The notes under the pieces are model-generated. The model was given only the letters and a program-made list of their open reading frames with translations, did not search any database and was not told the origin of the DNA. A stretch of DNA of 64,000 nt from Duganella sp. 1411 (GTDB lineage Bacteria > Pseudomonadota > Gammaproteobacteria > Burkholderiales > Burkholderiaceae_D). Within the stretch, counting starts at the first letter, position 1. Each line of letters begins with the position of its first letter. The translations under genes and the position numbers were made by a program. Shown piece by piece: positions 5,059 to 54,793 of the stretch. Location: NCBI RefSeq assembly GCF_017833525.1, contig NZ_JAFICD010000001.1:124001-188000 (forward strand). Reading direction: 5' to 3'.

Positions 5059-6681
5059 ATGAACGCACTCCAGAACCTCAAGATCGGCACCCGCCTCAAT
5101 TGTGGCTTCGCCCTGTTGATCACGCTGCTGATCGCGCTGGCGGTTTTCGGTCTCAACCGCATCCACGCCATCGACGCCGACACCGAGATCATCGTGCATG
5201 ACCGCTACGTCAAGGTTGCATTGGCGCACACGATCGAAAACGAGGTCAACCGGCAGGCCAGGGCGCTGCGCACCGCGCTGATCGCCATGGACGACGACAT
5301 CTCGGTGCGCGAACTGGCCAAGATCAGCGATTCGGCACCGATCATCGGCAAGGCGCTCGACCAGCTGCAAACGATCATCCACAGCGAGCAGGGCAAGGCG
5401 GCGCTGCAGGCGCTGGTGGCGGCGCGCGCCACCTTCCAGGACCACGAACACCGTTTGATCGAGCTGATCAAATCGAAACAGGCCGACGCCGCCCACGATT
5501 ACATGCTCAAGGAAATCATTCCGCCGCAAACCGTTTATCTGGGCGCGATCGAGGCGTTCGCCCAGACCCAGGTCAAGGGGATGGATCAATTCGCCGAGGA
5601 AGCCAACCAGATGGCCGACCGCGCCAGCACGTGGATGATCGCGCTGTCGGTGGTGGCCACGCTGCTGGCCCTGGTCACCGCCCACTTCTTGACGCGGTCG
5701 ATCGTGCTGCCTTTGCGCCGCGCGCTGGAGGTGGCCAAAACCGTCGCCGGCGGCGATTTGCGCACCCGTTTCGACACCTGCGCCAAGGATGAGACGGGCC
5801 AGTTGCTGCTGGCCCTGAAGGAGATGAACGACAGCCTGAAGAACATCGTCGGCCAGGTGCGCGCCGGCACCGACACCATCGCCACCGCGTCGACCCAGAT
5901 CGCCAGCGGCAACCAGGACCTGTCCTCGCGCACCGAGCAGCAAGCCGGCGCGCTGGAGGAGACCGCCTCGTCGATGGAGGAGATCACCAGCACCGTGCGC
6001 GAGAACGGCGACAACGCCCGCCACGCCAACCAGATGGCCGTCTCCGCCTCGGACGTGGCGGTCAAGGGCGGCGCGGTCGTGGCGCGCGTGATCGACACCA
6101 TGGGCTCGATCACCGATTCGTCGCGCAAGATCGTCGACATCATCGGCGTCATCGACGGCATCGCCTTCCAGACCAACATCCTGGCGTTGAACGCGGCCGT
6201 CGAGGCGGCGCGCGCGGGCGAGCAGGGCCGTGGCTTCGCGGTGGTCGCCACCGAGGTGCGCAACCTGGCCCAGCGTTCGGCCTCGGCCGCCAAGGAGATC
6301 AAGGCGCTGATCGGCGACTCGGTCGAAAAGGTGGAGATGGGCAGCCAGCTGGTCAACCAGGCCGGCACCACGATGGACGAGATCGTCGCCAGCGTCAAAC
6401 GCGTGACCGACATCATGTCTGGCATCGCCGTCGCCACCCAGGAGCAGAACACCGGCATCGAGCAGGTCAACCAGGCCATCACCGAAATGGACGCCGTCAC
6501 CCAGCAAAACGCCGCGCTGGTGGAGGAGGCGGCGGCCGCCGCCGAATCGCTGCAAAACCAGGCCGTCTCGCTGGCCGAACTGGTCAGCGTGTTCAAACTC
6601 GACGCCGACCGCCCGGCCGCGCCGGCGGCACCGGTGGCGAAGGCCGCCGGCCACCGGTCGCTGCGGCTGGCGTCGGCCTAG
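5059..6681 (+). CDS. Methyl-accepting chemotaxis protein
   Basis: 540-residue transmembrane chemoreceptor. TM1 is at about residues 13-35, followed by a periplasmic four-helix-bundle type sensor region, TM2 at about 192-212, a HAMP linker, then a long coiled-coil signalling domain. The highly conserved hairpin tip ([20 protein letters not shown] and the following [18 protein letters not shown]) lies near residues 362-410. The ATG at 5059 follows GAGG with six-base spacing; in-frame sequence upstream is low-quality. There is no C-terminal NWETF-type CheR tether. No che genes are nearby, so it signals to a remote array. The ligand is not predictable. A secreted Cache protein lies downstream on the other strand. 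Confidence 0.95.
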
Positions 6682-6790
6682 CCCTTCGCGCGGGATGCTT
6701 GCCGGTCAACCCCCGACCGGCGGCGCCCGCATGCGCGTACGAGAGCGCCTCCCGGTCTAGCCGCCGGCACACCCGGCATCCGGCGGGGGC

Positions 6791-7252
6791 TTATTTGTAG
6801 ACGCCGCAGCCGACCAGCGTGTCGTCGACTTTCTCGAAATACGTCGATTTCGATTCGATCGCCTTGCTCACCGGATTCGGCCATTTGTAATCGATCCAGC
6901 CCTTGCCCTTGGTTTTGGCGGTGTCGATCATCTCCTTCATGAAGAACTTGTCGTCGGCGTCCTTCAGGTTCATTAAATCCTTGCCGATCAGTTTGGCATT
7001 GGCGCCGTGGGCCTGCACCTTGCCGTTGAAATCGATGACGAACACATACAGGTCGCGGTCCTTGAACTGGCCGGCCTGATCGTTGAACGCGGCGTACGCC
7101 TTCGCCGGCCCGTTCGCTTTCAGATACTCGACGGCGCGCTGGACCATCGCGGTCGCCTCGGCGGCCGTGCCGCGGCCGTCGGCCGCCCAGCCCGGAACAT
7201 GGAGGGCCAGCACGCAGGCCGCGACGGACATCGATTTGAGCAATTGTTTCAT
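6791..7252 (-). CDS. Secreted single-Cache domain protein
   Basis: 153-residue protein with a signal peptide (residues 1 to about 23, ending PGWAA) followed by one small-molecule-binding Cache domain: FVIDFNGKVQAHGANAKLIG, then GWIDYKWPNP and a terminal VGCGVYK. It has no output domain, so it is probably a periplasmic binding or accessory protein. The start is set by GGGAGACGAAA before ATG. It converges with the chemoreceptor gene, which may be chance or may reflect a sensory pairing; that is inference. A GC-rich inverted repeat lies between the two 3' ends but lacks a T run. Confidence 0.8.
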   Translation of the reverse strand: MKQLLKSMSVAACVLALHVPGWAADGRGTAAEATAMVQRAVEYLKANGPAKAYAAFNDQAGQFKDRDLYVFVIDFNGKVQAHGANAKLIGKDLMNLKDADDKFFMKEMIDTAKTKGKGWIDYKWPNPVSKAIESKSTYFEKVDDTLVGCGVYK

Positions 7253-7512
7253 TTTCGTCTCCCGGAAAGGTCGTCTGTGTTGATCGTCTTCGATTGGTGC
7301 CGGCGCCCACGCGGCGGGGCCGGTGTTGAACGCTGATCCCATCGTAGCCCGTCCGCGCGGCCGGAAGTGTCATTGCGCGGACAATCGGCGCCGTGGCCGG
7401 CGCGATGTTGCGACAAGACAACAGACGCGCGCACGAATAGCGGCGGGCTAAAAAACCGCCCAATTGTCACGGGCCCGACAATTGCGCTCCGACAGCGATG
7501 CTACGCTAGGGT

Positions 7513-7538
7513 TTGACTTACGCTTACGTAAACGTCAA
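7513..7538. promoter_or_regulatory. LiuR-like palindromic operator
   Basis: Interrupted palindrome about 45 bases before the binding-protein start: TTGACTTACG on the left and CGTAAACGTCAA on the right. The right half, CTTACGTAAACGTCAA, resembles sites described for the MerR-family regulator LiuR of branched-chain amino-acid and acyl-CoA catabolism. The genes behind it (Leu/Ile/Val-type binding protein, acyl-CoA synthetase) fit that role. The regulator assignment is inference; the palindrome is seen directly. No convincing -10 element is placed. Confidence 0.5.
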
Positions 7539-7580
7539 AAAATGTGTTTCAGATAAGAAAACATAACGGAGACAAAACAT

Positions 7581-8789
7581 ATGAAGCTTACGCAGCTGTC
7601 GCTGGCCGCCGCCATGCTCACCGCGGTCATGGCCGGCGCCACCGCCCAGGTCAGCAACGACGCGGTGAAAATCGGCGTCATCACCGATCTGTCCGGCCTG
7701 TATTCGGACCTGTCCGGCCAGGGCTCGATCGCCGCCGCGCGCATGGCCATCGAGGACTTCGGCAAGACCGTGCTGGGCAAGCCGATCGAACTGCTCACCG
7801 CCGACAGCCACAACAAGGCCGACGTGGCCGCCTCCAGGGCGCGCGAATGGATCGACCAGCAGCACGTCGACGTGTTGATGGACCTGGTGCCGACCAACGC
7901 CGCGCTGGCGGTGATGGACATCGCGGCGCAAAAAAACAAGCTCGCCATCGTCGTCGGCTCGGCCTCGAGCGTCATCTCCAACGAGAAGTGCACGGCCACC
8001 AGCGTGCACTGGATGTACGACACCTATTCCAGTTCGGTCGGCACCGGCAAGGCGCTGCTCAAGCGCGGCGGCGACAGCTGGTACTTCCTCACCGCCGACT
8101 ACGCGTTCGGCAAGTCGCTGGAAAAGGACGTCTCCGACGTCGTCACGGCCGCCGGCGGCAAGGTGCTCGGCGCGGCCCGGCATCCGTTGAACAGCAACGA
8201 TTTTTCCTCCTTCCTGATGCAGGCGCAGGCCTCGAAGGCCAAGGTCATCGGCCTGGCTAACGCCGGCGGCGACGCCGTCAACGCCGTCAAGCAGGCCGGC
8301 GAGTTCGGCATCGCCACCAAGGGCGTGGTGGTGGCGCCGCTGTTGATGTTCATCAGCGACGTTCACGCCATCGGCCTGAAATACGCGCAGGACATGTACC
8401 TGACCGAGGGCTTTTATTGGGACTACAACGATGGCACGCGCGCCTGGTCGCGGCGCTTCTTCGCGATCCAAAAGAAGATGCCGACGATGGCGCAGGCCGG
8501 CATGTATTCGGCCGTGACCCACTATTTGAAGGCGGTCAAGGCGGCCGGCACGGACGACACGGCCGCCGTCATGACGAAAATGCGCGAGCTGCCCGTCAAT
8601 GACGTTATCATCCCCAAGGGCACCTTGCGCGCCGACGGCCGGATGGTGCACGACATGCTGCTGCTGCAAGTGAAGAAACCGGCCGAGTCGAAGTCGCCCT
8701 GGGACTACTACAGGGTGGTGGACGTGATCCCCGCCAACGAGGCGTTCAGGCCGTTGGCGCAGTCCGGTTGCGCGCTGGTCAAAAAATAG
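7581..8789 (+). CDS. ABC transporter substrate-binding protein, Leu/Ile/Val type
   Basis: 402-residue periplasmic binding protein with a signal peptide ending ATAQ near residue 22 and a type-1 periplasmic-binding fold. It opens with [20 protein letters not shown], typical of Peripla_BP_6 proteins, and runs to a C-terminal [14 protein letters not shown]. The ribosome site GGAGAC precedes ATG by eight bases. No permease or ATPase gene is adjacent, so it must use a remote transporter or act in sensing. Only 23 bases separate it from the acyl-CoA synthetase, suggesting co-transcription. The ligand could be a carboxylic or aromatic acid rather than an amino acid. Confidence 0.9.
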
Positions 8790-43266: not shown

Positions 43267-44259
43267 ATGCCTCATACGCGCCTTAACGTGGCGGTGGTCG
43301 GGGCCGGGTTGGCCGGCTTGTCTTGCGCGCGGCATCTGCAAAACGCGGGCTGCCGTGTGACCTTGTTCGAGAAGGCGCGCGGACCCGGCGGCCGCATGAG
43401 CACCCGCCGTGCCGACGGCTGGCAGTGCGATCATGGTGCACAGTATTTCACGGTGCGCGACAACGCCTTCCGCGACGAGGTCGCGCGCTGGGAGGCGGCC
43501 GGCGTGGCCGCGTTGTGGGAGCCGAGGATTGCCGTTATCGGCGGCGGCAAGGTGGAGCCGGACAGTGTCGCGCGCTTTGTCGGCGTGCCGCGCATGAGCG
43601 CTCCGGCGGCCTGGCTGGCGGCCGGCCTGCAGGTGCACAGCGGCGTTACCATCACACATATGCATCACGAGGCGGAGGGCTGGCGCCTGCATTCGAAGGA
43701 GCAGGGCTTGTACGCCGAGCCTTACGACGCGCTGGTGCTGGCGGTGCCGGCGCCGCAGGCGGCGGCGCTGCTGGAGCCGCTGCTGCCACTGACGGCGGTG
43801 CAGGCGAGCGCGGTCGCCATGCTGCCCAGTTGGACCTTGATGCTGCGTTTCGCGCGTCCCTACAAGCCGGGCTACGACGCCGCTTTCATCAACGACGGGC
43901 CGCTGCGCTGGATCGCGCGCGACAGCTCGAAACCCGGCCGCACCGGCAGCGAGGTGTGGGTGTTGCAGGCCGGCGCCGAGTGGAGCGCCGCGCATATCGA
44001 GGACGACGAATTGACGGTGACGGCGCTGCTGCTGGAGGCGTTTGCGGCGCTCGGCGGGCCGGCGCCGGATGCGGTCACCGCGCACCGCTGGCGTTACGCC
44101 AAGGCCGGCGCGGCGTCGTCGGGGCAGGCGGTGTGGCTGCCGGCGGTGGGGGTGGGCCTGTGCGGCGACTGGCTGGGCGGCGGCCGGGTGGAAGACGCCT
44201 GGCTTAGTGGACTGGCGCTGGCCGCCAAGGTGTTGACTAAAACTCCGTGCTTGCCGTGA
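43267..44259 (+). CDS. FAD/NAD(P)-dependent oxidoreductase, renalase/amine-oxidase type
   Basis: 330-residue flavoprotein with an N-terminal dinucleotide fold (VAVVGAGLAGLSCARHL, then FEKARGPGGRMSTRR) and C-terminal WLPAVGVGLCGDWLGGGRVE that closes the FAD site. The overall plan is that of small bacterial renalase-like amine oxidases. AAGGAAG precedes ATG. Relatives occur beside photolyase and LitR genes in other proteobacteria, and here it is divergent from the MerR-type gene and preceded by two TTGAACCG motifs. The substrate is unknown. The 3' end overlaps the opposing siderophore-receptor gene by 23 bases. Confidence 0.9.
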   Translation: MPHTRLNVAVVGAGLAGLSCARHLQNAGCRVTLFEKARGPGGRMSTRRADGWQCDHGAQYFTVRDNAFRDEVARWEAAGVAALWEPRIAVIGGGKVEPDSVARFVGVPRMSAPAAWLAAGLQVHSGVTITHMHHEAEGWRLHSKEQGLYAEPYDALVLAVPAPQAAALLEPLLPLTAVQASAVAMLPSWTLMLRFARPYKPGYDAAFINDGPLRWIARDSSKPGRTGSEVWVLQAGAEWSAAHIEDDELTVTALLLEAFAALGGPAPDAVTAHRWRYAKAGAASSGQAVWLPAVGVGLCGDWLGGGRVEDAWLSGLALAAKVLTKTPCLP

Positions 44260-46393
44260 GCGAAAGGCTGCGCGGCGCGCCCAGCACCAGATAGCCGCTG
44301 CCCTGCGCGCCGCCGGCCGAGGCCCAGTAGCTCTTGTCGGTCAGATTGTCGACACGCGCGCGCAGCGTGTAGGTTCGCCCGTCCAGATCCATCTCGAAGC
44401 GCGCGCCCGCGTCAAGCCGGTTCCACGACGGCAGGTTCTGGGTGTTGGCGGCGTTGACCGCCTGCGACGCCGTATGCAGCGCGCGCGCCGACAGGCTCAG
44501 GCCCGGCACGCCCGGCACGTCCCAGTCGACGCCCAGATTGACCTGCGACTTGGGCACGCCGATGACGTCCTTGCCGTCCGTCAGGCCGCCGGCGGTGCGC
44601 CGTTGCGAGGCGTCGAGCCAGGTCACGCCGCCCAGCACGCGCAGGCCGCGCAGCGGTTCGCCGAAGGCCGAGAGCTCGGCGCCACGGTTGCGCTGCTCGC
44701 CGTCGATGCCGAACACCTTGCTGGCCGGGTCCAGCACGCCCTGTGGCTGGGTGGTGGTGAACAGCGCGGCGTTGGCGCCGAAGCGGCCGCCGTCGTACTT
44801 CGCGCCCACTTCCTTCTGGCGCGATTTGTACGGGGCGAAAATCTGGCCGACGTTGACGGCGGTCGATCCGGCCACCGCGCCTTGTTGCAGGCTCTCGATA
44901 TAGTTCGCGTACAGCGACAGCCGTTTCGACGCCTTGTAGACCAGCGCCGCGATCGGCGTGTTCGCGCTTTCGCTGTAGTCGGCGTTTTGCTTGCCGGTGT
45001 TGTAGGCGTAGCCTTGTTGTCCGATGCGTTGGTGGCGCACGCCGACCGTCAGCAGCACGCGGTCGTCGAGGAAGCCCATGCTGTCGGCCAGCGCGCCGCT
45101 GACCAGCTTGACCTTGTTGGTGGTGCGCGGATCGGACAGCGCGTTGCCGAATGTGGTCAACTGCGGCAAGGCCAGCGCCGCCGGGTTGTACAGCGACGTC
45201 GCCTGGTAGGCCGATGTGGCGTAGGCGTTGCGCGAATCGAGCTCGAAGCCGGTGGTGGTCAGCGCCAGCTTGTGGCTCACGGCACCGGTGCGCAGCGCCG
45301 CGCGCAGTCCCAGTTCGCCGGTTTGCACATGGTCCTCGCGGGCGTTGTCGAAGCGGCGGATGTTGCCGGCGCCGGTGGCCGCCGTCAGGTTCAGCGTGCT
45401 GGCCAGGCGGTTGAGTTCATGGCCGCGCCGGCCGCCGAACGAGGCCCACGCCACCACGTCCCTGGCCACGTCCCATTCTCCGCGCAGGGTGCCGAAGACA
45501 TCGCGCTCGCTCGAGTAGTCCCACGGCTGGCCGAAGTTGGCGCCGCCGTCCGGCGCGGCGGGCACCGCCAGCCCGGCGGCGACGTTGACGGCCGGGCGGG
45601 CGTTGCGCATCCGGCTGTCCTGCCAACCCAGGTCGGCCGACAGCCGGAACCCGCGTCCGCGATAGTCGGCGCCCAGCGCGGCCAGTTGCAGCTCGCGGTG
45701 TTCGTCGTCGACGGCGGTGCCGCCCTTGCGCTGCACGGCGTTGAAGCGCACGCCGACGCGGTTCTCGTCGCCGAAGCGGCGCGCGATATCGGTGGCCAAA
45801 TGGGTTTGCCGGCCCGATTGCAGGCCCGCGCTGATTTCGGTCAGCGGTTGGACCGGCGCGCGCTTGGGCAGCAGGTTGATGGCGCCGCCGATGCCGCCGC
45901 CGCTGGGCGAGGCGCCGTTGAGGAAGGTGTTCGCGCCCCGGAAGACCTCGACGCGCTCCAGCAGTTCGGCGGCGATGTACTGGCGCGGCAGCACGCCGTT
46001 CAAGCCGTTGTAGGCCAGATCGTCCGAAGGCACGGGAAAGCCGCGAATGACGTACAGCTCCTGGTAATTACCGAAACCGCGCGCCACGCGCACCGACGGA
46101 TCGCTTTGCAGCACGTCGGCCACGCTGCGCGCCTGCTGGTCCTCGATGAAGCGTTGCGTGTAGTTGGTGCTGTTGAACGGCGTGTCCATGCTGTCCATGT
46201 TGCCAAGCAGGCCGACGCGCCCGCCCTTGGCGACCTGGCCGCCGGCGAATGCTTTCGACAGCCCGGCAGCCGAGGCGTCGGCGCTGGCGCTGATGACGAC
46301 CGTTTGCGGTTCGGCTTCGGTTTGCGCCTGCGAGGGCAGGGCGTACAGCGAGGAGAGGACGCACAACGTCAGCGGCTTTAATACAGGAGGCAT
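44237..46393 (-). CDS. TonB-dependent siderophore receptor
   Basis: 718-residue outer-membrane ferric-siderophore transporter. Signal peptide ends LPSQAQ. The plug domain includes SVADVLQSDPSVRVARGFGN, YVIRGFPVPSDDLAYNGLNG and ERVEVFRGANTFLNGASPSG; the barrel ends with the aromatic LSLTASTEF. The classical fhuE/FpvA-like branch is suggested by the plug. A sequence resembling a Fur box lies about 20 bases before the start codon, so iron repression is expected. No siderophore synthesis genes are adjacent, so it may take up xenosiderophores. Confidence 0.94.
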   Translation of the reverse strand: MPPVLKPLTLCVLSSLYALPSQAQTEAEPQTVVISASADASAAGLSKAFAGGQVAKGGRVGLLGNMDSMDTPFNSTNYTQRFIEDQQARSVADVLQSDPSVRVARGFGNYQELYVIRGFPVPSDDLAYNGLNGVLPRQYIAAELLERVEVFRGANTFLNGASPSGGGIGGAINLLPKRAPVQPLTEISAGLQSGRQTHLATDIARRFGDENRVGVRFNAVQRKGGTAVDDEHRELQLAALGADYRGRGFRLSADLGWQDSRMRNARPAVNVAAGLAVPAAPDGGANFGQPWDYSSERDVFGTLRGEWDVARDVVAWASFGGRRGHELNRLASTLNLTAATGAGNIRRFDNAREDHVQTGELGLRAALRTGAVSHKLALTTTGFELDSRNAYATSAYQATSLYNPAALALPQLTTFGNALSDPRTTNKVKLVSGALADSMGFLDDRVLLTVGVRHQRIGQQGYAYNTGKQNADYSESANTPIAALVYKASKRLSLYANYIESLQQGAVAGSTAVNVGQIFAPYKSRQKEVGAKYDGGRFGANAALFTTTQPQGVLDPASKVFGIDGEQRNRGAELSAFGEPLRGLRVLGGVTWLDASQRRTAGGLTDGKDVIGVPKSQVNLGVDWDVPGVPGLSLSARALHTASQAVNAANTQNLPSWNRLDAGARFEMDLDGRTYTLRARVDNLTDKSYWASAGGAQGSGYLVLGAPRSLSLTASTEF

Positions 46394-46458: not shown

Positions 46459-47787
46459 TTATGGGATAGCCGGCGGCGCCACGCCCTGGACGCCGGCCAG
46501 GCCGAGGATGGTGAGCATGACGTTCTGCGGTCCGGTGTGGGCATTCTTCGGCGACCACCACTCGTTCTTTTCGGAGTGGTAGCCACCCGAGCTGCCGCCG
46601 CCGGACATCGTGATGGCCGGGATGCCAAGGCTCATCGGCAGGTTGGCGTCGGTGGAGTGGGCGCTGTCGAGCGCCGCCGGCCGGCCTTGCGCGGTGGCCG
46701 CCGCCAGCGCCAGTTTGACGATGGTCGAATCCTTGGCCATCTGGCCGGCGGGCCGGTCGCCGATCAGTTTTATCTCGGCGGTGATGGCCTTGCTGTTCCA
46801 GCGTTGGTTGGTGTCGTCCACGCCCTGCTGGATCGCCGCCTTGATCTGTTGTTCGACCTTGGCCAGCAAGGGCGCGTCGGCCGAGCGGATGTCGATCAGC
46901 AGGCTGGCCTCGGCGGCGATGCTGTTGACCGATTGCCCGCCCTGGACCACGCCGACGTTGAAGGTGACCTTGGGTTCGGCCGGCACGCGCACCTCGTCGA
47001 TGCGGGCGATGGCGCGGCCGGCCGCGTGCACCGCCGACGGCAGGCCGAAGCCTTCGTAGCTATGGCCGCCCGGACCGCGCAGCGTGACCTTGAAGCGGCG
47101 GCTGCCGGTACCGATGTGGGTGACCGGGTCGCCGTCCGCGCCCAGCGCCGGTTCCAGGCCGACGAAGGCCTTGATGTCCTTGCGTTGGTTGAACAGGTGC
47201 TTGACGCCTTTCAGATCGCCCAGGCCTTCCTCGCCGACGTTGGCGCAGACCAGGACGTCGCCCTCGGTGGCGATGCCGGCGTCGCGCATGGCGTTGACGA
47301 TGGTGAGCATGGCCGCCAGCGAGCGAGCGTTGTCGGCGATGCCCGGCGCGTACAGGCGGCCGTCCTTTTCGCGTACGGTCAGGTCGGTGCCGGCCGGGTA
47401 GACCGTGTCGAGATGGGCCGCCAGCACGATGGTCGGACCTTTGCCGCTGCCGCGCCAGGTGCCCAGCACGTTGCCCGCGTCGTCCAGGTGCACGTCGCGC
47501 AGGCCGGCGGCCTTCATGCGCGCCAGGTAGTCGGCGGCGCGCGCGCCTTCGGCGAAGGTCGGCGCCGGGATGGCGTTGATGGCCAGCGTGTTGGCGGTGG
47601 TGGTCGGCTCGTTCTTTTCGATATAGGCCAGCGCCTGTTTCACCGCCGGCTGCGCGGCGATGCGCGCCATGCCGCGGTCCTGGTCCTGGTTCTGGGCCTG
47701 GTTCTGGGCCTGGGCCTGGGCCTGGGCCTGCAGCGCGAGCGTCAGGGCGGTGGCGGCGATGGTGAGCAGCAGGGGGCTTGCGGGCAT
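46459..47787 (-). CDS. M20-family metallopeptidase
   Basis: 442-residue exported M20/M25/M40 dipeptidase- or aminoacylase-like hydrolase. The signal peptide is followed by a Gln/Ala/Asn-rich stretch encoded by nine copies of a six-base repeat. Zinc ligands are in VLAAHLDTVYP, GIADNARSLAA, VGEEGLGDLKG and YHSEKNEWW; the lid domain has GGHSYEGFGLPSAVHAAGR. AGGA precedes the ATG. It is 14 bases downstream of a hybrid sensor kinase, which in turn is six bases from an aminotransferase-like gene, so the three probably form one transcript. Substrate is unknown. Confidence 0.9.
   Translation of the reverse strand: MPASPLLLTIAATALTLALQAQAQAQAQNQAQNQDQDRGMARIAAQPAVKQALAYIEKNEPTTTANTLAINAIPAPTFAEGARAADYLARMKAAGLRDVHLDDAGNVLGTWRGSGKGPTIVLAAHLDTVYPAGTDLTVREKDGRLYAPGIADNARSLAAMLTIVNAMRDAGIATEGDVLVCANVGEEGLGDLKGVKHLFNQRKDIKAFVGLEPALGADGDPVTHIGTGSRRFKVTLRGPGGHSYEGFGLPSAVHAAGRAIARIDEVRVPAEPKVTFNVGVVQGGQSVNSIAAEASLLIDIRSADAPLLAKVEQQIKAAIQQGVDDTNQRWNSKAITAEIKLIGDRPAGQMAKDSTIVKLALAAATAQGRPAALDSAHSTDANLPMSLGIPAITMSGGGSSGGYHSEKNEWWSPKNAHTGPQNVMLTILGLAGVQGVAPPAIP
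47676..47729. repeat. Nine-copy hexanucleotide tandem repeat in M20 peptidase gene
   Basis: Nine units of GGNCCT/GGTTCT type (most are GGGCCT) encode the Ala/Gln/Asn/Asp tract just after the peptidase signal peptide. As the unit is six bases, copy-number changes keep the frame and would only lengthen or shorten the linker. Confidence 0.85.
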
Positions 47788-47801: not shown

Positions 47802-50006
47802 TTAGTGGAGGGTGGCGATCACCGCCAGCAAGCCGTCGACATCGAGCGGCTTGACGAAATAATGGTCGAAACCGGCGTCCCTGGCCAGCTCCTTGTCCTC
47901 GCGGCGGCCGTACCCGGTGACCGCCACTAGCGTGGCGTTGGCCGTTTGCGGCAGCTGGCGCAGTCCGCGCGCCAGGTCGTTGCCGCTGATGTCGGGCAGG
48001 CCGATGTCGAGCAGGCACAGTTGCGGCCCGATCGCCTGGGCGATCTCCAGCCCGGCGTGGGCGGTGTGGGCCACGAAGACCTCGTGGCCGACCGTTTCAA
48101 GCAGCAGCTGCAGCGTTTGGGCGGCGTCGATGTTATCGTCGACCACCAGCACCCGCAGCCTGGTTTGCGGCTTGGGCACCGGCTTGGCCGATGGCGGCGA
48201 TTGCGGGCCGGCCGAACCGGGCAGCGTGATGGTGAACGTGCTGCCTTTCTGGTCGCCGCCGCTGTCGACGGCCACCGTCCCGCCGTGCAGTTCGACCAGC
48301 GTCTTGACCAGCGCCAGCCCCAGTCCCAGCCCGCCCTGCGAGCGGTCCGGATTGCGGTCGGCCTGGGCGAACAGCTCGAACACGCGGCCGCGCAATTCCT
48401 CCGACATGCCGATGCCGTTGTCGCTGATGATCATCTTGACCCGCTCCGTCTCGGCGCGCACCTGCAGGCGGATGGTGCCGCCGGCCGGCGTGTACTTGGC
48501 CGCGTTGTTGAGCACATTGACCAGCACCTGCACCAGCCGTTTATGGTCGCCCATGACTTGCAGCGGCGTTTCCGGCAGCGCCAGCTCGAAGCGGTGCTGC
48601 TTGGCGCGCATCATCGGGTCGGCCTGTTCGACGGCGTCGGCGATGACGTCGGTCACGTTCAGCGGCACGCGCGTCAACGTCACCAGGCCGCGCGTGACGC
48701 GCGAGACGTCGAGCAGGTCGTCGACCAGGCGCGTCATGTGGGTGACCTGGCGCACGATGATGCCGGCGGTGCGCTCGACCGCCTGCGGGCTGGCGTTGCC
48801 GCTCTGGAGCAGCTGGGCGCCGGCGCTGATCGGCGCCAGCGGGTTGCGCAGCTCGTGCGCCAGCATCGCCAGGAATTCGTCCTTGCGCTGGTCGGCCTGG
48901 CGCAGCTGGGTCTCGGCCTGCAGGTGCTGCAGCTCCTTCTCCTGCAGCGCGGCGGCCATGGCGTCGAGCGCGCGCGCCAGTTCGCTGATCTCCTCGTTGC
49001 CGTAGGCGATGCCGCTGCGCGCGCCCAGCGAGCCGGAGGCGATGCTGTTGGCGGTGGTGGCCAGCCGCTTGACCCGGCGCAGCACCAGCACGTCGCCGAC
49101 GAACCACGCCGCCAGCAGCGCCAGGATCAGCGTCGCCGACAGCGCCAGCAGGTCGAGCTTCTGGTCGCGCCGCGCGGCCCGGGTGATGTCGTCGGCCGGG
49201 ATGCCGATCGTGACGATGTAGTCCGACAGCCCCTTGGCGCCGACGCGGGCGAAGCGGTGCAGCCGTTCGACGCCGTCCGGCCCGGTCAGCAGCACCGGCT
49301 TGCCCGGTTCGCCGGCCATCGCCGCGCGCATTTCGGGCCACACCTGCTTGCCGTACCATTGTTCCGGATGGGGCTTGCGGGCGATGATCAGGCCCTCGGA
49401 GTCGGCGGTCATCAGCAGCGAACCGGGTGGCAGCTGGATATCGGCGACGAAGCGATCGAGCTTGGTCAGGTCGAGCGCGGCGAACAGCACGGCCTGCACC
49501 TGCTGGCCCTCGTCGAGCAGCGGATAGGTGAGGTTGACGGTGTGCTTCTGGATCACCCGGCCGAAGACGTAGCCGCCGGCGACGAAACGGCGCAAATGGA
49601 CGGCGCGGCGGAAATGCGTGCGGTCGCCCAGGTTGACCGGGGTCTTGGACGGGATGGCGCTGCAGGTGACGTCGCCGTTGAGCTGGATCAGGCCGAAGTT
49701 GGCGTAGTCGGGGTTTTGCCGCTGTATGCCGGCCAGCAGGCGGCTGCAATGGGCCTGGTCGCCCGTCAGATCGGGCACGCCGGCCAGGTCGCGCAGGATC
49801 TGGCGCGCGCTTTCGATCGATTGGGCCTCGTTGGCGGCGGCCAGGTTGGTCAGCCGCTGCAGATTTTCCTCGGCCACGCGGATGGCGTGTTCGCGTTCGC
49901 GCACGCCGCTGACGATGGTCATTACGGCGATCGGCGCGATCGCCAGCGCCACCAGCAAAATCAGCCGGCCGCGCAGCGTATTGAGTTGAAAAAGGAGGAA
50001 GGCCAC
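47802..50006 (-). CDS. Hybrid sensor histidine kinase with receiver domain
   Basis: 734-residue membrane kinase: TM near residues 12-32, a periplasmic double-Cache-type sensor (DPYANFG-like NPDYANFGLIQLNGDVTCSA, TYPLLDEGQQVQAVLFAALD), TM near 285-305, HAMP, HisKA with H-box LAMLAHELRNPLAPIS near 378, HATPase (NAAKYTPAGG, DNGIGM, GGLGLGLALVK) and a C-terminal receiver with phospho-acceptor Asp in LCLLDIGLPDISG near 667. The start is GTG, six bases after the stop of the aminotransferase-like gene, with no clear Shine-Dalgarno, so translational coupling is likely. Cache sensors of this class often bind amino acids or carboxylates. No DNA-binding partner is next to it. Confidence 0.92.
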   Translation of the reverse strand: MAFLLFQLNTLRGRLILLVALAIAPIAVMTIVSGVREREHAIRVAEENLQRLTNLAAANEAQSIESARQILRDLAGVPDLTGDQAHCSRLLAGIQRQNPDYANFGLIQLNGDVTCSAIPSKTPVNLGDRTHFRRAVHLRRFVAGGYVFGRVIQKHTVNLTYPLLDEGQQVQAVLFAALDLTKLDRFVADIQLPPGSLLMTADSEGLIIARKPHPEQWYGKQVWPEMRAAMAGEPGKPVLLTGPDGVERLHRFARVGAKGLSDYIVTIGIPADDITRAARRDQKLDLLALSATLILALLAAWFVGDVLVLRRVKRLATTANSIASGSLGARSGIAYGNEEISELARALDAMAAALQEKELQHLQAETQLRQADQRKDEFLAMLAHELRNPLAPISAGAQLLQSGNASPQAVERTAGIIVRQVTHMTRLVDDLLDVSRVTRGLVTLTRVPLNVTDVIADAVEQADPMMRAKQHRFELALPETPLQVMGDHKRLVQVLVNVLNNAAKYTPAGGTIRLQVRAETERVKMIISDNGIGMSEELRGRVFELFAQADRNPDRSQGGLGLGLALVKTLVELHGGTVAVDSGGDQKGSTFTITLPGSAGPQSPPSAKPVPKPQTRLRVLVVDDNIDAAQTLQLLLETVGHEVFVAHTAHAGLEIAQAIGPQLCLLDIGLPDISGNDLARGLRQLPQTANATLVAVTGYGRREDKELARDAGFDHYFVKPLDVDGLLAVIATLH

Positions 50007-50012
50007 AGCGGC

Positions 50013-51164
50013 TCAGTGGGCGCGGTAAAGCGCGTTGCCGAATTCGACGATGGACAGCACGCCGCGCCGCAGCGTGGCCACGTCGTCCGAGATGTAGCCG
50101 AGGCGGATGTGGCCCGGCACGCCCAGCGCCTCGCCCGGCATCACCGCCACCGAGCGCTCGGCCAGCAGCCGCTCGGCCAGCGCGTTGGTGTCCATGGTCA
50201 GCCGCGAGACGTCGGCCCACAGGTAAGGCCCGGAGGCGGGAGCGTGCATCGTCAGCCAGGGCAGGCCGGCGGTCAGCTCGAGCACCAGGTCGCGTCGGGC
50301 GCGGTAATCGGCCATCATGCCGGGCGGCTCGTCCGATTCGAAGGCCGCCGCCAGCGCCAGTTGGGTGAGCATCGGCGCGGCGGCCGTGATCGGGCCCTGC
50401 AAGGTCTCCATGGCCGTCACCAGCTGCGGCGGCGCCACCGCGAAACCGGCGCGCCAGCCCATCATCGCGTGGCTTTGCGAGGCCGAGAACAAGGTGACGA
50501 CGCCCAGTTCGCGCCAGTCCGGGCGCGAGGCCAGGCTGACGTGGGCGCCGTCGAAGATCAGCTTCTCGTAGCTTTCGTCGACGATGGCGCGGGTGCCGGT
50601 GCGCTTGAGCCACGCGCCGACGCAGTCGATTTCGGCCGGCGTGAGCACCGCGCCGGTCGGGTTGTGCGGGTTGTTGATGATGAGGATGGCGGCCGGCGGC
50701 AGGCAGTCGAGCAGCTCGGTGGTGATGACGTCGGGCAGGTCGACCAGCACCGGTTGCAGCCCCAGCAGGCGGCTGGTGGCCACGTAGGCCGGCCAGTGCG
50801 GTTTGAAGATGATGACCCGGTCGCCCGGATCGGCCATCACGTACAGCGCCTGGTACAGCGCCTGTTTGGCGCCGTTGGTGACCAGGATGTCGGCCGGCGT
50901 GGCGTCGATGCGATTTTCCTTGACCAGCTTGGCGGCCAGCCGCGCGCGCACCGCCGCGTCGCCGACGACGGCGGTGTAGGCCAGCGCCGGCTGGCGCAAG
51001 CCCTCGCTGACGGCTTCGAGCACCGTCGCAGGGGCCTGGAAATGCGAGATCGCGATGGAAAAATCGATCACCTCCTCGCCGCCCGCCTTCATCGCCTCGA
51101 CCCGGCCGTGCATGGCCGTCGTCGCGAGCGGCCTGGAACGGGCTATGCGTTGGGAAATTTCCAT
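50013..51164 (-). CDS. Class I/II aminotransferase-like protein with PLP lysine replaced by Gln
   Basis: 383-residue protein of the aspartate-aminotransferase fold. Most PLP contacts are intact: TNGAKQALYQALYVMADPGD, NNPHNPTGAVLT, the cofactor Asp in IVDESYEKLIF and the carboxylate Arg in GHIRLGYI near residue 352. The Schiff-base position, normally SxSKxxxxxGWR, here reads FSASQSHAMMGWRAGF, so the catalytic Lys is Gln230 (codon CAA at 50475-50477). It cannot form the normal internal aldimine. The start is set by AGGGA eight bases before ATG. It heads a probable operon with a hybrid kinase and an M20 peptidase, and is divergent from a LivK-type binding protein. Confidence 0.88.
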   Translation of the reverse strand: MEISQRIARSRPLATTAMHGRVEAMKAGGEEVIDFSIAISHFQAPATVLEAVSEGLRQPALAYTAVVGDAAVRARLAAKLVKENRIDATPADILVTNGAKQALYQALYVMADPGDRVIIFKPHWPAYVATSRLLGLQPVLVDLPDVITTELLDCLPPAAILIINNPHNPTGAVLTPAEIDCVGAWLKRTGTRAIVDESYEKLIFDGAHVSLASRPDWRELGVVTLFSASQSHAMMGWRAGFAVAPPQLVTAMETLQGPITAAAPMLTQLALAAAFESDEPPGMMADYRARRDLVLELTAGLPWLTMHAPASGPYLWADVSRLTMDTNALAERLLAERSVAVMPGEALGVPGHIRLGYISDDVATLRRGVLSIVEFGNALYRAH

Positions 51165-52534: not shown

Positions 52535-54793
52535 TTACGCGCCCGGTGGCGGACCGCCGCCCGGCCCCGGCCCGCCCGGCCCCATGCGCGGACCGAAACC
52601 GCCGCCTTCGCGCTCCGTCGAGCCGCCGGCGCCGCCGAAGCGGTACGACAATCCCAAATAAAACACCCGCCCGTCGAACCGGCGCGTGCTGGTCTCGCGC
52701 AGCGTCGCGCTGTTGATCACCGTTTCCATCTTGTTTTGATTGAACACGTCGGTGACGGTGGCCACCAGGCTCAGTCGCGGCGTCACCGCCTGGCGCGCGC
52801 TCAGGTTGAGGGTGCGGTTCGGCGAGCGGTAGCCCTGGCCCGACAAGGTCTTGCCCATCATCTGCAGCGCCATCTGCAGCTGGGTGGCGGCGCTGAGCTG
52901 GTAGTTCAAGCGCACCCGCCCGCTCAGCGAATTGGCGGTGCGCGTGCTGTAGGCGCCCGTGTCGTCCTGCGTGCGTTGCTGGCTGCGCGCCAGGTTGCCG
53001 CTGCCGTTGATCGTCAGCGTGGGCAGCAGTTTGCCGCTGATCGTGAATTCCAGCCCGCTGGCGTGGCTGCCTTCGCCGTTTTGCTTGGTGGTCAGCAGCA
53101 CGTTGTTGGCGATGAAGTAGCGGTAGTCGACGATGGCGTCGGTGTCCTCGCGGTAGTAGGCGCGCAGGTTGGTCTCCAGGCCGGCCACCTTGGTCTCGTA
53201 GCCCACCTCGAACGAATCGGTCTTGGTCGGCATCAGCTGCGGATTGCCGGCCGAGACGTTGAATTCATCGCGGTAGACCTGGTAGGGATTGAGGTCGTTG
53301 GCGCCGGGGCGGCGGATGCGGCGCGCGTACGCGAAGCGCAGGTTGGCCGTGTCGTTGACCTTGTAGGTGGCGAACAGGCTGGGGATGAAGTTGACGTAGC
53401 TGTTCTTGTCGTCCGTGCCGCTTGTGATCTGGCGGATGTCCATGTCGGTGTATTCGGTGCGCAGGCCGGCCAGCGCGCCCCAGTTCTCGCTCAGGCGCAT
53501 CTGGTAGGAGCCGTACAAGGCGAACACCGTCTCGTCGACCTCGAAGCGGTTGCTGCGCGCCGGGTTGACGATGGCGACCGATGTCAGCGGATCGATATCG
53601 GTGTACAAGGTGTCGAAGGTGCTCGTGGTGCGGGCCGCCTTGTAGCCGGCCTTGGCCGAGCCGCCCCACAGCGGGCGCTCGTAGTCGCCGGTGAAATCGA
53701 CCACCTTGATGGTGGTGTCGCTGTGCTGGAAGGCGCGCGTGTCGGCGATGCCGGGCGTGGTGTAGTCGTTGGCGTAGTTGCTGTCGTTGTCGTTGTCCGA
53801 CGACGACACGCGCAGGTCGATCTTGAGCGTCTCGCCGGGCAGCTCGCCCTTGTGGTCGTAGCGTCCGCCCCAGCTATAGTTCTTGCTGTCGCCGTTGCGC
53901 ACCGTCGAGCGCGTGTAGTCGCTGGCCGGGATGAAGGCGGTGGCGCCGTTGGCGTAGACGTCGGTGGCGCGCTGGTCGTTGCTGCGGCCGTTGTAGGTGG
54001 CGCTGGCGGTCAAGGTGTCGGTCTGGTTGAGGTTGTAGCTCAAGGTGCCGTTGGCGCCCAGCATGTCGTTGAGGCCCTTGCCGACCGACGACTGGCTGCT
54101 GTGGACGAAGCGGCCGGTGACCGGATCGAGGCGGTCGCGGCTGACTTCGGCGGTCGAGTCGCGGCCGTCGTGCCGCACGTTGAGGCCGCCCTGGAAGCCC
54201 CAGGCGCCCTCGTTGTAGCTGCCGTTGACGGCGCTGTTGTAGCGGCCGTCCTTGCCGGCGTTGGCGTTGACGGTGGCAAAGCCGCCCGGCTTGCGGTTGC
54301 GCCGCATCACCAGGTTGAGGATGGGGCCGCCGCCGCCCTCGTTGCCGAACTGGGCGCCGGGGTTGTTGATGACCTCGACCGATTCGATATCGTCGGCGCC
54401 CATGGCCTGCAGCGCGGCGCCGCGGTTCTCGCCCTGCAGCATGGCCGACGGCTTGCCATCGACCAGGATCTGCACATTGGTGCTGCCGCGCAAGGAGACG
54501 GTGCCATCCGGATCGACGGCCACCGACGGCACGTTGTTGAGGGCGTCGGCGGCGGTGCCGTTGGTGCTGGAGACGTCGGATTTGACGTCATATACCTGGC
54601 GGTCGATGCGGTTGGTGGGGCGTTCGCCGGCGACGGTGACGGAGGGCACGACGGCCGCTTCCTTCGGTTTCGCCGTGACCGGCTTGGTGTCGGCCGTGGT
54701 TTGGGCCAGCGCGCCGAGCGGGGCGGCCAGCAGCACCCCGAGGGAGCCGCCGGTCAGGCACTGGGACAGGAGTTTCTTTTGTTTCTTTTGCAT
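52535..54793 (-). CDS. TonB-dependent receptor with Gly/Pro-rich C-terminal tail
   Basis: 752-residue outer-membrane receptor of the outer-membrane beta-barrel (OMP_b-brl_3) group. A plug is visible in ADALNNVPSVAVDPDGTVSL, NVQILVDGKPSAMLQGENRG and IESVEVINNPGAQFGNEGGG; the barrel runs to YLGLSYRFGG. The last ~33 residues (720-752) are a Gly/Pro-rich tail with Arg and Met, beyond the normal terminal aromatic strand. The substrate is unknown. The stop codon lies in an eroded REP arm. It is convergent with the LivK-type gene and no TonB or periplasmic partner is adjacent. Confidence 0.9.
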   Translation of the reverse strand: MQKKQKKLLSQCLTGGSLGVLLAAPLGALAQTTADTKPVTAKPKEAAVVPSVTVAGERPTNRIDRQVYDVKSDVSSTNGTAADALNNVPSVAVDPDGTVSLRGSTNVQILVDGKPSAMLQGENRGAALQAMGADDIESVEVINNPGAQFGNEGGGGPILNLVMRRNRKPGGFATVNANAGKDGRYNSAVNGSYNEGAWGFQGGLNVRHDGRDSTAEVSRDRLDPVTGRFVHSSQSSVGKGLNDMLGANGTLSYNLNQTDTLTASATYNGRSNDQRATDVYANGATAFIPASDYTRSTVRNGDSKNYSWGGRYDHKGELPGETLKIDLRVSSSDNDNDSNYANDYTTPGIADTRAFQHSDTTIKVVDFTGDYERPLWGGSAKAGYKAARTTSTFDTLYTDIDPLTSVAIVNPARSNRFEVDETVFALYGSYQMRLSENWGALAGLRTEYTDMDIRQITSGTDDKNSYVNFIPSLFATYKVNDTANLRFAYARRIRRPGANDLNPYQVYRDEFNVSAGNPQLMPTKTDSFEVGYETKVAGLETNLRAYYREDTDAIVDYRYFIANNVLLTTKQNGEGSHASGLEFTISGKLLPTLTINGSGNLARSQQRTQDDTGAYSTRTANSLSGRVRLNYQLSAATQLQMALQMMGKTLSGQGYRSPNRTLNLSARQAVTPRLSLVATVTDVFNQNKMETVINSATLRETSTRRFDGRVFYLGLSYRFGGAGGSTEREGGGFGPRMGPGGPGPGGGPPPGA

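Follow-up and report, generated by a model that had tools for sequence, protein, structure and literature searches.

What can a protein with the fold of an aminotransferase do when the lysine that forms the Schiff base with PLP has been replaced by glutamine? This question is raised by a gene on the minus strand (50013..51164) of the 64,000-nucleotide stretch of Duganella sp. 1411 DNA analyzed here (the window), which comes from a 7.63 Mb genome assigned to a GTDB genus that includes strains named Duganella, Rugamonas and Pseudoduganella. The translated ORF starts with the ATG at 51164 and encodes 383 amino acids, and the CAA codon at 50475..50477 (minus strand) specifies Gln230 within the sequence SASQSHAMMGW. 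Alignment with the aspartate aminotransferases 1j32 and 1bkg places Gln230 in the column of the Schiff-base Lys, exactly as the original prediction had claimed from this one sequence.

The overall identity of the protein is clear. Pfam identifies a single domain, Aminotran_1_2 (PF00155; residues 31-357), at 149.3 bits compared to the cut-off of 19.7, and the closest relatives with solved structures are aspartate and prephenate aminotransferases, with 1j32 at E 1.1e-51. The scores with the curated NCBIfam models for aspartate aminotransferase (NF041091; 213 bits, cut-off 550) and GntC (NF041364; 197.1 bits, cut-off 415) fall below the respective cut-offs, so membership in these two equivalog families was rejected. 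An AlphaFold2 model (22 sequences; pLDDT 85.4, pTM 0.87) matches aminotransferases in the PDB over its own length, with Z scores of 40-47 among the 50 matches listed, including 5wml, the K306A variant of prephenate aminotransferase (Z 47.2), and 1j32 (Z 45.3, TM 0.89); the aspartate and prephenate aminotransferases represented by 1j32, 1bjw and AtPAT (5wmh/6f5v) span Z 42.7-45.8.

The simplest explanation of Gln230 would be a strain mutation, a sequencing error, the decay of a pseudogene or the takeover of the role of Lys230 by another lysine; nothing beyond the single sequence speaks for these possibilities, and we consider them hardly credible. Among the 65 distinct proteins of what we denote the Gln-type family (distilled from 106 locus rows by redundancy removal, many of the rows duplicating one place; only L072 is partial), all 65 contain Gln in this position, well in excess of what chance would produce; this count covers the proteins with fetched loci, a subset of all genome matches. 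One additional copy outside this set (L199) likewise has Gln. The Schiff-base Lys expected of a PLP-dependent aminotransferase is thus replaced throughout the family, and the orthologue alignment reveals Gln, with Lys not seen. Both Gln codons are used (CAA in 32 and CAG in 33 of the 65 sequences), and the dN/dS values for 19 pairs of Gln-type genes are about 0.04-0.35 (Nei-Gojobori), suggesting that Gln230 is maintained at the protein level; these observations rule out mutation, error and pseudogene, the last of which the original prediction had also deemed unlikely. As for a substitute lysine, K79, K121 and K172 vary within the family, and K100, the only invariant Lys, is shared with the Lys-bearing relatives; accordingly, we rejected an alternative Lys, none having newly appeared as judged by sequence.

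Whole-protein searches, which are free of seed bias, delineate the family. Within the genus, relatives at 62-100% identity were detected in 34 of the 74 genomes, and in the sample of the taxonomic family, at 57-100% identity, in 70 of the 392 genomes from 5 of 44 genera, 27 of the 70 belonging to the host genus. A peptide-pattern search also retrieved exclusively Gln-containing proteins, an outcome biased by a seed pattern that itself contains the Gln. Next in similarity come Lys-bearing relatives (about 30-35% identity): 41 of the 42 outgroup rows have Lys in this column, and the remaining one (L008) has it one column over, an alignment slip. In the order sample (300 genomes, E 1e-45), the 7 genomes with matches beyond the family (32-35% identity) all have Lys, as do the best 28 loci beyond the family in the phylum sample (349 genomes, 221 of them matched in a profile search at E 1e-50). 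The class sample (369 genomes, E 1e-55) yielded only the window itself, 20 plasmid records matched at 30-37% identity, and viral contigs gave no match. As seen in these thin samples, with a handful of candidates scored per genome, the family is confined to Oxalobacteraceae, and members elsewhere are possible. In the phylogenetic tree, the 65 Gln-type proteins fall on one side of a branch with SH-aLRT support of 94, some outgroup branches being flagged as long; the placement of L008 next to the Gln-type clade was set aside because its branch is one of those flagged. Judging from these sequence comparisons, the family is monophyletic and under purifying selection, and the Lys-to-Gln change is fixed in it.

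The loss of the lysine contrasts with the preservation of the rest of the cofactor site. Y63, G98, K100, W124, N168, D196, Y199, R238 and R354 are invariant across the 65 proteins; we take these residues to be the contacts of aspartate aminotransferase with the ring, the phosphate and the pyridine nitrogen of the cofactor and with the α-carboxylate of the substrate. In the numbering of E. coli aspartate aminotransferase, Tyr63 (50976..50978) would correspond to Tyr70* contributed by the partner subunit, Trp124 (50793..50795) to Trp140, which in that enzyme stacks on the PLP ring, Asn168 (50661..50663) to Asn194, Asp196 (50577..50579) to Asp222 that pairs with the pyridine nitrogen, Tyr199 (50568..50570) to Tyr225, Arg238 (50451..50453) to the phosphate-binding Arg266, and Arg354 (50103..50105) to Arg386 that binds the α-carboxylate; G98-K100 (50865..50873) lies in the phosphate-loop region (all on the minus strand). 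Thus, apart from the Schiff-base Lys, the PLP contacts and the Arg386 equivalent are all invariant in the 65 proteins, and the retention of the NPHNPTG motif (which contains Asn168), Asp196, Tyr199 and Arg354, noted originally for the single protein, extends to the family. Thr15 (51120..51122, minus strand) is invariant as well. By alignment offset (query 1-360, chain 70-451), Thr15 and Lys100 map to Thr84 and Lys169 of the prephenate aminotransferase from Arabidopsis, the pair of positions substituted in 5wmk, and Lys100 also aligns with the KQ Lys of Tth AspAT, which is substituted in 1b5o, a single mutant of the Thermus enzyme. We assume that the equivalents of Thr15 and Lys100 play a role with acidic substrates, with Thr15 reading the distal carboxylate. 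The Gln-type protein shares with the aspartate and prephenate aminotransferases the cofactor contacts and the dicarboxylate site formed by Thr15/Lys100 and Arg354; it differs from them in having Gln in place of Lys and AISHF in place of GEPDF, at about 30% identity, and in the linkage of its gene to a sensor kinase gene (see below).

Compared to 37 close Lys-bearing rows, the family displays 23 conserved replacements, among them G38A, E39I, P40S, D41H, V125P, S126A, S167H, G227S, K230Q, T235M, A312G and F313P. Several of these signature changes adjoin active-site motifs in the alignment, suggesting that the active site has been remodeled rather than decayed. In particular, IAISH (residues 37-41; 51042..51056, minus strand) replaces AGEPD of the Lys-bearing relatives in the substrate loop and is a signature of the family; with the GEPDF segment of this loop changed to AISHF, the ligand may be other than an ordinary amino acid. 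Two of the clade-specific residues, His41 and His167, are invariant and located near the active site by alignment. The rebuilt loop, together with the loss of the Schiff-base Lys and the near-strict linkage to the kinase, would also fit a pseudoenzyme scaffold that no longer takes up PLP and either controls the kinase purely through protein-protein contact or has an unrelated ligand. We consider such a scaffold improbable given that the phosphate, ring and pyridine-nitrogen contacts are invariant down to 57% identity, which would be unexpected in the absence of a cofactor.

Without the lysine, there can be no internal aldimine and the 1,3-proton shift is deprived of its usual base, so ordinary transamination should fail. 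Given that the remainder of the site is intact, and by analogy with Lys variants, PLP, PMP or a PLP-amino acid adduct should still bind in the Gln-type site. Apart from 5wml, the PDB entries that match the model include 3eia (Z 40.1) and 3ei9 (Z 40.4), which according to their titles are the K270Q and K270N variants, respectively, of LL-diaminopimelate aminotransferase; the titles name L-Glu complexes and appear to denote external aldimines, and that of the sister entry 3ei5 specifies a PLP-Glu external aldimine. The fold match and the titles indicate that in all three variants the Lys is replaced in the position of Gln230, in 3eia by the same Gln that the family carries naturally. These proteins, however, are laboratory mutants of active enzymes, whereas the replacement in the Gln-type family occurs in nature, is fixed and comes together with 22 other signature changes.

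To our knowledge, fold type I proteins in which the absence of the Schiff-base Lys is both natural and fixed are rare, the cases we are aware of involving either a His replacement, as in ColD, or a catalytic paralogue, as in LCB1. LCB1, a subunit of serine palmitoyltransferase, belongs to fold type I, lacks the Lys and supports a partner; that partner is a catalytic paralogue with the aminotransferase fold, whereas the partner proposed for the Gln-type protein is a kinase. The sugar 3-dehydratases ColD, E1 and SpnQ resemble the Gln-type protein in being Lys-replaced proteins of the aminotransferase fold, in their case with His in place of the catalytic Lys (PMC8987622). They employ this His as acid/base with PMP as the cofactor, whereas the Gln-type protein has Gln and no common biosynthetic neighbors; with Gln rather than His in the Lys site, membership in the ColD/E1 type of 3-dehydratases was rejected. 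The precedent of retained chemistry after Lys replacement (PMC8987622) bears on the main rival explanation, namely, that the Gln-type protein is still an enzyme catalyzing PMP/PLP-dependent chemistry other than transamination, as E1, ColD and SpnQ do, with another residue serving as acid/base and a product that could enter a pathway or act as a signal for the kinase. The invariance of all other cofactor contacts and of the substrate Arg is compatible with this possibility, and His41 and His167 could act as bases. Nevertheless, Gln, unlike the His of ColD, is a poor acid/base, no biosynthetic gene is a common neighbor among the 42 loci with flanking sequences, and the Gln-type gene appears to have been lost repeatedly next to a retained kinase gene; on balance, we regard retained catalysis as unlikely, albeit a serious contender.

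The genomic context is dominated by this kinase gene (47802..50006, minus strand), which encodes a hybrid histidine kinase with a dCache_1-like sensor, HAMP, HisKA, HATPase_c and receiver domains; its GTG start codon lies 6 bases past the stop codon of the Gln-type gene. HisKA (58.5 bits), HATPase_c (94.6), the receiver (63.6) and HAMP all score above the Pfam cut-offs, and dCache_1 just under (42.2 bits, cut-off 45). The kinase gene is the next one downstream, on the same strand, in 41 of the 42 flanked loci, with one place counted twice (L058 and L082). By coordinates, it directly follows 73 of 74 copies of the Gln-type gene in 73 genomes, with 5-203 bases between the match ends, and the pair is also adjacent in 4 further genomes from the search of the taxonomic family (L062, L066, L069 and L199), for an overall adjacency of 77 of 78 copies (77 genomes, genus and taxonomic-family searches combined). 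The exception is genome G098, where the Gln-type gene (L072) is truncated by the contig start and the kinase gene (L159) resides on another contig; here, proC/yggS/pilT-like genes (named by eye) follow the Gln-type gene, the only separated case seen. Two further loci have unusual organization. Contig C1 of genome G380 carries two diverged copies of the pair (L070 and L071) about 50 kb apart on opposite strands; the two Gln-type proteins are 57-58% identical to that of the window, and each gene is followed by its own kinase gene. In L084 (5231-8495), the kinase match is divided between one ORF at 5231-7486 and another at 7536-8495, next to an intact Gln-type gene, possibly due to a frameshift or an assembly error.

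The Gln-type gene was never found without the kinase gene in the 77 genomes of the genus and taxonomic-family searches, and the linkage between the two is nearly absolute. The pairing could also be purely operonic, the Gln-type product being an ordinary metabolic or moonlighting protein with dosage set together with that of the kinase. Under this interpretation, the partner would be dispensable to the kinase, as indicated by the 31 of 95 kinase-bearing genomes that are not among the 70 Gln-type positives; yet the Gln-type gene does not occur without the kinase, and G098 retains both genes even though they are separated, so we find a merely operonic association quite improbable. The linkage itself would also fit an enzyme with expression simply tied to that of the kinase.

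The other flanking genes are less constant. Divergently oriented from the Gln-type gene is a gene for a LivK-like periplasmic binding protein (PF13458; 51276..52463, plus strand; the start codon was selected by eye), and the two gene starts lie no more than about 110 bases apart. In 8 loci of the genus that lack the Gln-type gene, the LivK-like gene faces the kinase gene directly (ORFs inspected by eye). A LivK-like match (tblastn, E 1e-4) is absent from the 20 kinase loci L159-L178, the 13 of these that were read containing other upstream genes, and we therefore rejected the idea that the pair requires the LivK-like protein as a third member. The other flank is occupied by a flavoprotein-like gene (identified by eye) in 9 of the 42 loci with the Gln-type gene and, among the 13 loci read in which the Gln-type gene is not next to the kinase gene, in 8. 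The only features shared by more than 18 of the 42 loci are the kinase gene (41) and ORFs running antisense to it; the kinase gene is the only constant neighbor of the Gln-type gene. Farther away in the window, genes for TonB-dependent-receptor-type outer-membrane barrels are located on either side of the region (44237-46393 and 52535-54793, minus strand), and the start of an M20-peptidase gene (46459-47787, minus strand) contains a short 6/18-bp repeat (47679-47730) that, by eye, encodes a QAQAQ-like linker after a presumed signal peptide.

The kinase gene, in turn, does not depend on the Gln-type gene. Among the 74 genomes of the genus, 34 have both genes, 14 only the kinase gene (two of these, G008 and G027, on the basis of partial matches), none only the Gln-type gene and 26 neither (Fisher p 3.8e-10, uncorrected for shared ancestry); the persistence of the kinase without the Gln-type gene in 14 of its 48 genomes means that it can do without this partner. 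In samples of the taxonomic family, the kinase gene was detected in 95 of 385 genomes, a few matches being partial, and it is from these that the 31 genomes mentioned above fall outside the Gln-type positives, the 385-genome kinase sample and the 392-genome Gln-type sample being not identical. The 3-3.5 kb preceding the kinase gene, examined for 19 of these 31 genomes, contained no match to the Gln-type gene. On the kinase tree (73 rows, 44 with and 29 without an adjacent Gln-type gene), this label requires 13 changes, at least 9 of them on starred branches. The protein distances of the two families are strongly correlated (Mantel r 0.875, 0 of 999 permutations, 38 loci), as expected of any linked pair. 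Given that the kinase often occurs alone, the Gln-type gene looks like a repeatedly lost accessory, and the plainest history is that the pair is old and has lost this gene on several occasions; repeated gain is a possible alternative.

A protein with the aminotransferase fold that functions in regulation has a precedent in the MocR family. GabR senses GABA in the form of the PLP-GABA external aldimine, which stabilizes the closed form (PMC6917764), and GabR and other MocR proteins retain Lys312 (PMC6677901). The likeness to the role proposed here is in the regulatory use of the fold; the MocR proteins carry the Lys and an HTH domain, whereas the Gln-type protein has neither, and its proposed partner is a separate kinase. 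With no N-terminal winged-helix domain found by Pfam and with Gln230 in the position equivalent to Lys312, membership in MocR/GabR was rejected.

Taken together, the Gln in 65 of 65 proteins, the invariant contacts, the 23 signature changes, the kinase adjacency, the 3eia and 3ei9 structures and the example of GabR lead us to favor, tentatively and at a little short of an even chance, the view that the Gln-type protein used to be an aminotransferase, now retains PLP or an amino acid-PLP adduct without turning it over, and conveys amino acid status to the kinase. The intact remainder of the site, the GabR precedent and the kinase linkage together suggest an accessory sensor or modulator. In this scenario, the family would have given up ordinary transamination through the replacement of the Schiff-base Lys by Gln while keeping the cofactor and carboxylate sites, and would bind, non-covalently, PLP or the adduct that PLP forms with a dicarboxylic amino acid or a related one. 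The protein would then be a cytosolic, ligand-responsive accessory partner of the linked dCache-type hybrid histidine kinase, the two genes being probably co-transcribed, and might contact the kinase and act in a GabR-like manner, where the aminotransferase domain moves the attached DNA-binding domain. That the protein could bind such a ligand non-covalently and serve as a sensor was part of the original prediction; what is added here is the linked kinase gene, which was not mentioned there and lends support to the idea of a sensor, and the ligand binding we still infer. A more specific possibility, speculative and rather unlikely, is a new type of two-component input, in which the Lys-less protein traps an amino acid (or a keto acid) in a PLP/PMP adduct that persists because the releasing residue has been replaced, and reports this to the kinase. 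The intracellular status of amino acids or vitamin B6 would then be integrated with the periplasmic dCache-type signal of the kinase.

As far as our literature searches reach, neither the fixation of Gln in place of the Lys nor the association with a kinase has been described, the fold and the kinase themselves being of known kinds: among the matches listed, in a search with most subscription journals outside its coverage, there was neither a Lys-to-Gln aminotransferase family nor an aminotransferase-kinase pair. This clade keeps the cofactor site, bears the very Gln used by crystallographers in a glutamate complex and accompanies a sensor kinase. The annotation of its members as "aminotransferase" is unproven and calls for caution. 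If the proposed role is correct, the Gln-type protein would link vitamin B6 and amino acid status to two-component signaling.
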